Shown here: in pieces, positions 28,850-33,185 of the stretch | Layout: each line of letters opens with the position of its first letter | Numbering within the stretch: position 1 is the stretch's first letter | Source: Chloroflexota bacterium | GTDB lineage: Bacteria > Chloroflexota > Anaerolineae > J102 | Assembly (NCBI GenBank): GCA_013151415.1 | Contig: JAADII010000051.1 | Span: 1 to 42,457 of the forward strand | Direction of reading: 5' to 3' | Length of the DNA: 42,457 nt | Program-made: the position numbers and the translations under genes | The notes under the pieces: model-generated | What the model was told of the DNA's origin: nothing | Databases searched by the model: none | The model's input: only the letters and a program-made list of their open reading frames with translations

Positions 28850-29494
28850 CTATTTGTAGCCGTGTTCGGCCAGAAAATCGAAGCTAACGCCTTCTGTGCG
28901 GAGAGATTGCGTTGTCATGATGCGCTCCACATATTTGCCCAAAATATCCACTTCGATGTTCACATGATAGCCGATGGATTGTCGCGCCAGAGCGACGTGT
29001 TTCTGGGTGTAAGCCACCAGAGTGACGGTGAAGCTGTTCTCGAATACGTCCACAACTGTGAGGCTGATTCCATCGAGCGCCACAAAGCCCTTGGGAACAA
29101 TGTAGCGCATAAGCTTGGGCGGCGTTGCAACCGTGAGCCACAGGGCGTCGGCGTCGGGGCGAATATGAGTGATGACGCCGACGCCATCCACATGCCCTTG
29201 CACAAAATGGCCTCCCAACCGCGTGGCGGGCGTGAGGGCTCTTTCCAGGTTGAGCGGTTCTCCCTTGCGTAGGCGCTTGAGATTGGTGCGGGCCAGGGTT
29301 TCGGGCGCAAGGTTGACTGTGAACGTGTTGGCGTCGAAATCGACCACGGTGAGGCAAACGCCATTGACCGCGATGCTATCGCCCAATCGGATATCGGATA
29401 ACACCGATCCGGCTTCGATGGTGAGATAGACGCCCTGGCCGGTGCGCGACCAACGAGCGACCAAACCAACTTCTTCAACGATTCCTGTAAACAA
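28850..29494 (-). CDS. ribE: Riboflavin synthase alpha chain
   Basis: This enzyme dismutates two lumazine molecules to riboflavin and the pyrimidine intermediate. The 214-residue protein has two lumazine-binding repeats: FTGIVEEVGLV with GDSIAVNGVCLTVV, then GGHFVQGHVDGVG and VALDGISLTVVDV. The start codon is TTG (29492-29494), supported by AGGAGG (29503-29508) eight bases upstream; no ATG fits the conserved N-terminus. It lies 38 bases after the ABC ATPase gene and 14 before ribB. Confidence 0.94.
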   Translation of the reverse strand: MFTGIVEEVGLVARWSRTGQGVYLTIEAGSVLSDIRLGDSIAVNGVCLTVVDFDANTFTVNLAPETLARTNLKRLRKGEPLNLERALTPATRLGGHFVQGHVDGVGVITHIRPDADALWLTVATPPKLMRYIVPKGFVALDGISLTVVDVFENSFTVTLVAYTQKHVALARQSIGYHVNIEVDILGKYVERIMTTQSLRTEGVSFDFLAEHGYK

Positions 29495-29532: not shown

Positions 29533-30300
29533 TCAACGCTCTTGATAAGGGCTGTCAATGGCCATTCGCACGCGGCGCATCAGGGCAAGATAGTTGGGAT
29601 CCACCAGCGTTTCGTCGGTTCGGGGGTGTGGCAAAGTGATGGGGATCTCGCACTTGATGGACCCTGGTCGTTGAGATAGCACCAACACGCGATCGGCCAA
29701 AAAAACGGCTTCATTGATGGCGTGAGTGACCATGAAAATGGTTTGGTTGCGTATGCGACGGATGCGAAGCAGCTCCTGATTAAGGCGTTCTCGCGTGATC
29801 GCGTCCAGCGCGCCGAAGGGTTCGTCCAAAAGGAGAATTTCCGGATTTTGAGCCAGGGTGCGAGCAATGGCCGCGCGTTGCTGCATCCCGCCCGAAAGCT
29901 GATGCGGATAACTGTGCTCGAAACCGGTTAAGGCCACCAACTCCATGAGTTGTTGGGCGATGGCATAACGTCGTCCGCGAGGTTCGCCGGCCAGCTCCAG
30001 GGGCAGAGCGATGTTATCGCGCACGGTGCGCCAAGGCATCAGATTCACATTTTGGAAGACAATGCCCACGCGCGGGCTGGGCTCGCGCACAGGTTTTCCA
30101 TCTAGCAATATCTCACCGCTGGTGGGATGGAGCAGCCCCGCAACCAGGCGCAACAGGGTTGACTTTCCCCCGCCGCTCGGTCCCACCATGCACACCAATT
30201 CTCCCCGCTCGATCGCGAAGCTGATATCGCGCAACGCGTGGAGCGGGTCCTCAGGATCGCCGTAGGCCTTGTAAACGTGACGAAGTTCGAGTAGCGGCAT
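29533..30300 (-). CDS. ABC transporter ATP-binding protein, flavin importer
   Basis: This 255-residue ABC ATPase is of the SsuB/TauB/ThiZ type. Walker A is GPSGGGKSTLLRLVAG, the Q-loop lies near VFQNVNLMPWRTV, the signature is LSGGMQQRAAIARTLA, Walker B is ILLLDEPFGALD, and the switch histidine is in VTHAINEAV. All catalytic residues are present. It powers the adjacent permease and works with the lipoprotein. Its place between the binding protein and ribE, under an FMN riboswitch, indicates import of riboflavin or a flavin precursor, although the sequence type alone is shared by sulfonate and pyrimidine importers. Confidence 0.9.
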   Translation of the reverse strand: MPLLELRHVYKAYGDPEDPLHALRDISFAIERGELVCMVGPSGGGKSTLLRLVAGLLHPTSGEILLDGKPVREPSPRVGIVFQNVNLMPWRTVRDNIALPLELAGEPRGRRYAIAQQLMELVALTGFEHSYPHQLSGGMQQRAAIARTLAQNPEILLLDEPFGALDAITRERLNQELLRIRRIRNQTIFMVTHAINEAVFLADRVLVLSQRPGSIKCEIPITLPHPRTDETLVDPNYLALMRRVRMAIDSPYQER

Positions 30301-30396: not shown

Positions 30397-31434
30397 TCAG
30401 TCGATTCCTGCCGTTTCGACGAATTCGTTGGTCCAAAGGCCGTTGGTTTCCACCAGCTTGTCCACCAACCCGGCCTCGAACATGAATGTGGCGGTTTGAG
30501 GCCAGATGTCAGGATCGGTGTAGCCAAGGCCTCGTCCTTTGGGCGGCGTCCACAGCTCAATGGAAGCGTCGAAAATGGCCCGATTCACCTCACGCTCTTG
30601 AGCGGCTTCAGGCACGAATTTCAGGCTTATCTCAAAGGCTTCGTCAGGATTGTCGAGGGTGTATCGCAGGCCGCGCAGAAACGCTCGCACCATGCCCTGA
30701 ACGAGCTCTCGGTTCTCGGTGATGGTCTGCTGGTTGGTCACCAGCCCGTTGGCCGGAAGTTTGAGATAATCATCGATGACGATGATATTCACTTCTTGAC
30801 CGGACAAACGCATTTGCACCGGGCCATTGACAATGTAATCCACGGCTGCGTCCACCAGACCTTCTTGCACGGCTGCGGCCTGAGTGAAGCCGATGCTTTC
30901 CAGGGTGATGGCCTCTTCGTCCACGCCAGTGGCGTAGATCAATCCTTTCCAAGCCACATAGCTTGCGCCAAAGAGGCCGGGGATGCCCACTTTCTTGCCC
31001 TCCAAATCCTCTGGCTTGCTGATGCCGCTGGATTGGGGCGCAAACACCACCACCGGAAAACGGGGAAACCAGTTGGCCACATATACTACGGGCAGTTCTT
31101 GCGCTGCACCCAAAATCATTTGCTCTCCGCTTGCGATAATGAACTGGCGTTCGTTCGTGCCCACCAGTTTGAGAAAATCGGTCTCGAAGCCGTATTCCAT
31201 CTCGAGAGCAATGTTTTCGTCGGCAAAAAAGCCTTTGTCGATGGCGACGTAAAGCGGCGCGAATTGAACACTGGGAATAAAACCGACGCCGAGCTTGATT
31301 TGGGTGGGTTCAGGCGGCGACGTGGGCGTCGGCTTGGTGGCGGGAGCGGCGGGCGGCGCTGGCGGCGCACAAGCAGCCAACAAAACAACGAACAAAAGAA
31401 CGAAGATGAAAAGATGTGGGGTTCGTATTGTCAT
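30397..31434 (-). CDS. ribY: NMT1/THI5-like substrate-binding lipoprotein (RibY-type)
   Basis: This 345-residue protein has a lipoprotein signal peptide ending LLAAC (lipidated C22). A short Pro/Thr-rich linker leads to a periplasmic-type binding fold: IKLGVGFIPSVQFAPLYVAI, KGFFADENIALEMEYG, EDLEGKKVGIPGLFGASYVA and a C-terminal helical part. Its class, NMT1/THI5-like, is known for thiamine-pyrimidine, sulfonate and, in Chloroflexota, predicted riboflavin importers (RibXY). The FMN riboswitch and downstream rib genes favour riboflavin. ATG 31434 is chosen; a TTG at 31440 is possible. It is separated by 67 bases from the permease and 96 from the ATPase. Confidence 0.8.
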   Translation of the reverse strand: MTIRTPHLFIFVLLFVVLLAACAPPAPPAAPATKPTPTSPPEPTQIKLGVGFIPSVQFAPLYVAIDKGFFADENIALEMEYGFETDFLKLVGTNERQFIIASGEQMILGAAQELPVVYVANWFPRFPVVVFAPQSSGISKPEDLEGKKVGIPGLFGASYVAWKGLIYATGVDEEAITLESIGFTQAAAVQEGLVDAAVDYIVNGPVQMRLSGQEVNIIVIDDYLKLPANGLVTNQQTITENRELVQGMVRAFLRGLRYTLDNPDEAFEISLKFVPEAAQEREVNRAIFDASIELWTPPKGRGLGYTDPDIWPQTATFMFEAGLVDKLVETNGLWTNEFVETAGID

Positions 31435-31501
31435 GGTCAATTTTCCACTTCAAGTTATGAATGTTTTGGCGAGATGATGAGAACGCATCTGTTAGCGGGA
31501 A

Positions 31502-32326
31502 TTATTCCGCGCGTTTCCACGCAAGAAAATGGTGTTCGAGCAAGCTGACCAGGGTGTATAGACCAAGTGCAATGCCCACCAGGGTGAACAAGGCTACAAA
31601 GAGCAAGGGGGTGTCGAGCAAACCGCGAGAGAGATTGATAAGAAAACCCAATCCGCGATTCGCGCCTACGAACTCGCCTATGACCGCGCCAATGACGGCC
31701 AGGGTCGCGCCCACTTTCAGGCCGCCAAACAGGACGGGCAAAGCCGACGGCGCTTCCAATTTGGTGAATATTTGCCAACGAGTCGCTCGTAATGATCGCA
31801 TCATGGCCAGCAATTCGGGCTCGACCGAGCGCAGCCCGACTATGGTGTTGACCAAGGCCGGAAAGAACAGGGTGAGAGCGCAGATGAGGATGGTGCGGAC
31901 CAGGCTGTCGCTAATCCAGATGACTAAAAGGGGGGCTATGGCGATGATGGGAAAGGCCTGAAGCGCGACGATATAGGGCGAGAGAAGCTGATTGAGCGTG
32001 GATGATCGGGCCAAGATATAGCCCAACACCGTGGCCACGGCTAGACCCAACGCCAAACCGGCGATGATCTCGATAAAGGTTGTGCTGGCGTGCCGCCACA
32101 GGGTGCCGTCATCCACCATCAGCAAGAATTTGTCCCACACGTCGATGGGCCGCGGCAGAATGAATGTGGGATAGTCTCGCCATTGCACCAATCCCTCCCA
32201 TAGGAATAGAAATGCGATAACTGTGACAGGCGCGAGCAAGATGCGCGCCCAGCGTAATCGCGCGCCATTTCGCCAGGCTCGCGCCAGAAAATTGCCTGTC
32301 GGGATGGGAATTTGTTCAGTGGTCAT
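31502..32326 (-). CDS. ribX: ABC transporter permease (RibX-type)
   Basis: This 274-residue inner-membrane permease has six helices and the BPD_transp_1 fold. The first helix is APVTVIAFLFLWEGLVQW. The coupling-helix loop is ELLAMMRSLRATRWQIFTKL followed by EAPSALPVLFGGLKVG (the EAA-like motif). It is the first gene after the riboswitch and terminator, followed by the binding protein and ATPase. ATG 32326 begins MTTEQIPIPTG; a GTG at 32389 in the same frame would add 21 residues and place the start only 17 bases after the terminator T-run, so it is less likely. Predicted substrate: riboflavin or a related flavin. Confidence 0.82.
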   Translation of the reverse strand: MTTEQIPIPTGNFLARAWRNGARLRWARILLAPVTVIAFLFLWEGLVQWRDYPTFILPRPIDVWDKFLLMVDDGTLWRHASTTFIEIIAGLALGLAVATVLGYILARSSTLNQLLSPYIVALQAFPIIAIAPLLVIWISDSLVRTILICALTLFFPALVNTIVGLRSVEPELLAMMRSLRATRWQIFTKLEAPSALPVLFGGLKVGATLAVIGAVIGEFVGANRGLGFLINLSRGLLDTPLLFVALFTLVGIALGLYTLVSLLEHHFLAWKRAE

Positions 32327-32405
32327 TTTGGAGCTGCAATGATTGGCGACTAAAGGGTTGGGTGCACAAAAAAGAACGTTTTCTTTCACGTGCTATGGAC
32401 AAACA

Positions 32406-32434
32406 AAAAAGCGGCCAGGTCGTGCCTGGCCGCC
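32406..32434 (-). terminator. Intrinsic terminator, expression platform of the FMN riboswitch
   Basis: On the minus strand a perfect 9-bp stem GCGGCCAGG/CCTGGCCGC with a 5-base loop is followed at once by six Ts, then G and more Ts. It lies between the FMN aptamer and the first transporter gene, as expected for FMN-dependent transcription termination. Two further small hairpins (for example CGCCC/GGGCG at 32463-32477) lie between aptamer and terminator and could form the alternative antiterminator. Confidence 0.88.
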
Positions 32435-32496
32435 GCGCGCGTGCATACACAAACGCGCATCTCGCCCATACAGGGCGACATGCTTGCTCGGGTCAC

Positions 32497-32740
32497 GACC
32501 TTCTCCCATCCGGACTATACCGTCGGCTCCGGCCTCTCACCGGATCTGCTGTCACCTCGTTGGCGCCATCGCGCCCGGCCATCTCCTTGGGTGGGATAAT
32601 GGCCCGAGGCCGCTCGCGGGCTCGGCGTCCTTAACGCTTCTGCAACAAGGCAGCGACTTTTCAGACGCCATACCGCCGGTCGGGAATTGCCGCTTGCAAG
32701 ACCTGGCGGTCTATCCGCGGCTCACCCTGCCCCGAAGGTC
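32497..32740 (-). ncRNA. FMN riboswitch (RFN element)
   Basis: The conserved RFN core is plainly readable on the minus strand. P1 arms are GACCTTC (32734-32740) and GAAGGTC (32497-32503). GGGGCAGGGTGA begins P2, AATTCCCGACCGGCGGT follows, then GCCCGCGAGC. GATCCGGTGAGAG leads to CCGGAGCCGACGGTATAG and TCCGGATGGGAGAAGG. Two parts are longer than usual: a 33-nt hairpin inside the P2 loop (32689-32721) and a long variable region before the second half, making 244 nt in all. Binding of FMN should favour the downstream terminator and reduce expression of the importer and ribEBH. Confidence 0.95.
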
Positions 32741-32763
32741 ATTCGGTTATGGAGTTTGGAATA

Positions 32764-32792
32764 ATGATAACAGAGTTGCCATGCGCTGTAAA
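32764..32792 (-). promoter_or_regulatory. Promoter of the flavin importer-rib operon
   Basis: On the minus strand TTTACA (32787-32792) and TATCAT (32764-32769) are 17 bases apart. The predicted start lies about 17 bases before the riboswitch P1. Confidence 0.6.
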
Positions 32793-32939: not shown

Positions 32940-33185
32940 TTGGCCAAAGCAAGAACTCCTCGCAAAAAGAAAAAGGACAAAATCGAACTCGAGGGCACGG
33001 TGATCGAAGCGCTGCCCAACACCATGTTTCGCGTGCGTCTCGACAACGGACACGAAGTGCTGGCTCATATTTCGGGTAAGATGCGCATGTATTATATTCG
33101 CATTGCGTTGGGTGATCGCGTGACCGTGGAGCTTTCACCCTACGATCTCACCCGCGGGCGCATTGTTTACCGCCATCGCAATTGA
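32940..33185 (+). CDS. infA: Translation initiation factor IF-1
   Basis: This 81-residue protein is a single OB fold that occupies the ribosomal A site during initiation. Family segments are clear: [39 protein letters not shown] and [20 protein letters not shown], ending RHRN. A basic N-terminal stretch ([13 protein letters not shown]) extends it slightly. The start is TTG 32940, supported by AGGAGG (32925-32930) with a 9-base spacer; no ATG fits. It stands alone, outside a ribosomal protein operon. Confidence 0.95.

Follow-up and report, generated by a model that had tools for sequence, protein, structure and literature searches.

The FMN riboswitch aptamer encoded in the window, a 42,457-nt stretch of contig JAADII010000051.1 from a Chloroflexota bacterium (assembly GCA_013151415.1), carries a 33-nt hairpin in the T-loop of P2, which is a real and correctly placed feature and a further example of a known, widespread kind of insert. 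The riboswitch is very probably functional, terminating a riboflavin-uptake and riboflavin-synthase operon at high FMN, with P2 bearing an optional helix at a permissive site.

A full-length FMN riboswitch upstream of riboflavin genes

The features of the locus, in the order of transcription, are as follows.

32764-32792, minus strand: promoter-like site TTTACA-17-TATCAT with an extended -10 TG, upstream of the aptamer (consensus scan)
32494-32743, minus strand: FMN riboswitch aptamer, full length, 250 nt (cmscan against RF00050)
32689-32721, minus strand: 33-nt hairpin interrupting the P2 T-loop between its nucleotides 3 and 4 (UGA^AA) (sequence)
32494-32501, minus strand: P1 3' strand region AGGUCGUG, candidate antiterminator (complementarity to the terminator)
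32410-32434, minus strand: intrinsic terminator GGCGGCCAGG-CACGA-CCUGGCCGCU followed by a U run (10 pairs, 8 of them G-C)
31502-32389, minus strand: ABC permease, presumably RibX-like, first gene of the operon (Pfam BPD_transp_1)
30397-31440, minus strand: substrate-binding protein with an NMT1/THI5 domain, presumably RibY-like (Pfam NMT1, 3.2e-44)
29533-30300, minus strand: ABC transporter ATPase (Pfam ABC_tran, 3.2e-36)
28850-29494, minus strand: riboflavin synthase, ribE (NCBIfam NF006767, 231 bits, above the cut-off)

Positions 32743-32494 of the minus strand matched RF00050 over the full model (1-138) in cmscan with 83.4 bits (E 1.2e-17), above the gathering score of 66.2 bits, bearing out the identification of an FMN riboswitch in the original prediction. 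This copy is the single match in the 4.5-Mb genome, where no second FMN riboswitch was found. The six-stem junction and the conserved P2, P3, P5 and P6 blocks are all present in the alignment, in which one non-standard pair (two positions) is flagged. The score is lower than that of most relatives, the better of which reach 90-114 bits, but the window aptamer also has long arms at P3 and P4. The full-length match supports the expectation that the rest of the aptamer core is intact and probably functional. P3 and P4 comprise 45 and 55 nt in the alignment, compared with 10 and 11 in the consensus; the long P3 and P4 occupy 32667-32540 of the minus strand, and P4 is predicted to fork into two hairpins.

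The 3' strand of P1 contains AGGUCGUG (32501-32494), all 8 nt of which are reverse-complementary to CACGACCU (32424-32417) within the terminator, whose hairpin also appears in the MFE fold. The terminator and the 8-nt complementarity to P1 would form a P1-linked expression platform, and the arrangement is probably a P1-sequestering transcription switch of the usual type. The promoter-like site has 10 of 12 consensus matches, with one such site found versus 0.2 in shuffles, and is a consensus match only. Beyond the promoter region, a divergent frame (32941-33185, plus strand) appears by eye to be IF-1-like with a Lys/Arg-rich N-terminal extension.

The genes downstream of the aptamer are for riboflavin transport and synthesis, the context expected of RF00050. 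We take the permease and the NMT1-type binding protein to be RibX- and RibY-like. The BPD_transp_1 match of the permease (3.5e-26) was measured on a shorter frame (31502-32326), and its start codon may be either the GTG at 32389 or one further inside the frame. Overall, the window aptamer resembles the FMN riboswitch or RFN element (RF00050): it matches the full model, has every conserved block, precedes riboflavin genes and has a putative P1-linked terminator, but it differs in carrying additional long hairpins at P2, P3 and P4.

The insert is a helix that extends P2

The P2 loop reads GGGUGA-GCCGCGGAUAGACCGCCAGGUCUUGCAAGCGGC-AAUUCCC, in which the insert is exactly 32721-32689; P2 without these 33 nt is UGAAAUUCCC. 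The insert folds into an outer stem GCCGC/GCGGC and an inner stem AGACC/GGUCU closed by the loop GCCA, with a free energy of -18.2 kcal/mol against a mean of -9.4 kcal/mol for shuffled sequences (z -3.65; 1 of 200 shuffles equally good), confirming the 33-nt hairpin in the P2 loop with the fold originally claimed. An extra G-C pair is placed inside its internal loop by the folding program. Moreover, the MFE structure of the entire 250-nt aptamer contains P2 as well as the inserted hairpin.

The P2 site is a known optional insertion site that was already described in 2007, and T-loops of FMN aptamers can be interrupted by an intervening helix, according to Barrick & Breaker (PMC2258182). With its position inside the GNR triloop and its 5-bp outer stem, the window insert is a helix-interrupted P2 T-loop. 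Like the helix-interrupted T-loops described there, it is a base-paired helix at one specific position within the GNR triloop of the P2 T-loop, and nothing essential about it is different.

Pairing was further analyzed in a set of 137 distinct inserts from 140 accepted insert-bearing loci that have a P6 motif downstream (AGUCCGGAUGG, up to 2 mismatches allowed). Nine loci were dropped by this strict motif; some resemble coding-sequence false positives (for example L082 and L151, neither of which matches RF00050), and others (for example L083 and L117) are probably true aptamers. All four end positions are paired in 93 of the 137 inserts, a number that averages 6.7 and never exceeds 16 when the ends are re-paired between loci 2000 times, and at least three are paired in 128 of 137 (mean 33.0, maximum 47 over the same trials). 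G-C, C-G, A-U and U-A pairs are each seen at every one of the four positions. Because the ends pair and covary, covariation at the outer end supports the insert as a helix extending P2. Towards the inside the inserts differ freely in sequence, as they do in length, also within one family.

Inserts at the same site are frequent in many bacteria

Two pattern samples, which cover only aptamers exactly matching GGGCRGGGTG...TTCCC-N-RYCGGYGGT, were used to count inserts at the P2 site. A pattern search of 400 Chloroflexota genomes gave 150 aptamers among the matches listed, of which 95 are without an insert, 32 have 10-20 nt and 23 have more than 20 nt; inserts of at least 10 nt are thus found in 55 of the 150 listed (37%). 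In the Bacillota pattern sample (n = 60), the corresponding numbers are 45, 6 and 9, giving 15 aptamers (25%) with at least 10 nt. No inserts of 1-9 nt occur among the 150 listed Chloroflexota or the 60 Bacillota aptamers, and none of any length was found in the small samples of 12 Pseudomonadota and 2 Bacteroidota pattern matches, from which seed genomes were excluded. The view that the two halves of the conserved sequence are normally almost continuous therefore holds for the majority of aptamers in both phyla, but fails for the 37% of Chloroflexota (among the matches listed) and the 25% of Bacillota with inserts of at least 10 nt.

At closer range, inserts at the exact window site are frequent among 61 same-family or same-class genomes, and in the window's own family 10 of 12 FMN aptamers, read by eye, have one. 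A wider scan, covering 84,980 species genomes and inserts from about 21 nt upwards, yielded at least 118 stretches with such an insert at the P2 site, from Chloroflexota, Bacillota, Acidobacteria, Spirochaetes, Bacteroidota, Verrucomicrobia, Gammaproteobacteria and others. When 20 loci were checked by cmscan, 17 scored over the RF00050 cut-off; the three failures were L082 and L151, picked as suspected false positives, and L142, whose match sits near the end of its sequence stretch.

The original prediction had presented the insert as notable and had proposed counting P2-loop inserts over 20 nt, many of which would tell against it. That count, 23 of 150 Chloroflexota aptamers (among the matches listed) and 9 of 60 Bacillota aptamers, goes against the claim, as do the frequent same-site inserts across Chloroflexota, Bacillota and other phyla. 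The window insert is ordinary, because it uses a known insertion site shared by many bacteria. These counts of P2 helices for two phyla are added here to the earlier description, the consulted text of which (PMC2258182) gives no P2 count.

The T-loop and its contact with L6

In the known FMN aptamer structure, L2 forms a T-loop (UGAAA) whose nucleotides 4 and 5 take up an intercalating L6 adenine between them (PMC3764141). The window aptamer keeps all five T-loop nucleotides; its insert separates nucleotides 3 and 4 and leaves the 4/5 gap untouched. Each of the 140 accepted insert-bearing loci has the L6 adenine, a figure to which the filter motif itself contributes by favouring that adenine. 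Since the T-loop retains all its nucleotides, the L6 adenine is kept and the insert is outside the 4/5 gap, the proposal that the contact of the P2 loop should be altered or replaced by the insert is not supported. Judged from the sequence, the L2-L6 tertiary contact is probably preserved, and the window sequence appears compatible with the trans U-A geometry of the T-loop.

Among the Chloroflexota matches listed, 53 of 55 insert-bearing aptamers have A as T-loop nucleotide 3, versus 43 of 95 insert-free ones (Fisher p 1.4e-11, uncorrected for shared descent). Across phyla, when an insert is present, this nucleotide is A in 118 of 137 cases and C in 18. The inserts seem to be all-or-none, with 0 or at least 10 nt in the two pattern samples, and A3/A4 may therefore form a fixed stacking platform. 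That the T-loop adapts to the inserted helix in this way, which could tune L2-L6 docking, is a reading that we hold to be doubtful.

Alternative explanations and proposed mechanism

The insert helix might instead make a new tertiary contact, for example with the long P3 or P4 arm, replacing L2-L6 or tuning affinity. The length of both arms in the window aptamer would fit such a contact, as would the weak correlation that Chloroflexota show between the length of the insert and the P3-P6 span (rho 0.35, p 0.04), but over all loci the two are uncorrelated (rho -0.05, p 0.52) and the span shows no difference with and without an insert. In addition, the contact nucleotides of L2 and L6 are kept and the inner insert sequence is unconserved even among family members, leaving a new contact improbable. 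A general coupling of P2 insert length to P3-P6 length was rejected as absent overall. We consider it still less probable that the insert marks a regulatory subtype, such as transporter- versus biosynthesis-controlling riboswitches, even though 25 of 33 Chloroflexota genomes with two pattern-matching copies (among the matches listed) combine an insert-bearing copy with an insert-free one. By gene calls made by eye, a biosynthesis gene follows the insert-bearing copy in G401, G288, G249, G219 and G370, and a RibX-type permease follows the insert-free copy in G288, G219 and G370. However, the direction is reversed in the window's family, where a permease follows the insert-bearing copy in G000 and G010 and a ribH-like gene follows the insert-free copy of G010; furthermore, G396 has inserts in both copies, and G211 and G264 in neither. 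Because the direction reverses between lineages, insert state does not consistently follow gene type in the loci whose downstream genes were read, suggesting that it tracks descent rather than the downstream gene. The association of insert with gene type, strong-looking in part of Chloroflexota, was rejected on the same reversal. The two-copy genomes include G108, G219, G249, G288, G370, G401 and others (L197-L208).

The strong divergence of insert sequence between relatives at a constant position could also be produced by a mobile or repeat element, such as a REP-like hairpin, landing in the riboswitch, but this origin is extremely improbable. The inserts lie at the same nucleotide, remnants of 1-9 nt are absent from the two samples (for Chloroflexota, the matches listed), and no other copy of the 33-nt insert occurs within 3 mismatches in the 4.5-Mb genome, on which ground a repeat origin was rejected.

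In the preferred explanation, that of a functional switch with an optional P2 helix, the window aptamer would bind FMN when it is plentiful and transcription of the riboflavin-uptake and riboflavin-synthase operon would end, termination being the predicted output of the switch. The extra P2 helix most likely points outward in a stack beyond A3/A4, and the T-loop, the 4/5 intercalation gap, the L6 adenine and the FMN pocket would stay as in ordinary members; the helix may be structurally neutral or mildly stabilising. The prevalence of P2 inserts is a caution against calling them new contacts. In many phyla, the P2 T-loop of the FMN riboswitch accommodates helices at one nucleotide position, ranging from 10 to over 50 nt, and this permissive site is of practical use as a point where reporter hairpins or crystallisation modules can be joined to the aptamer.
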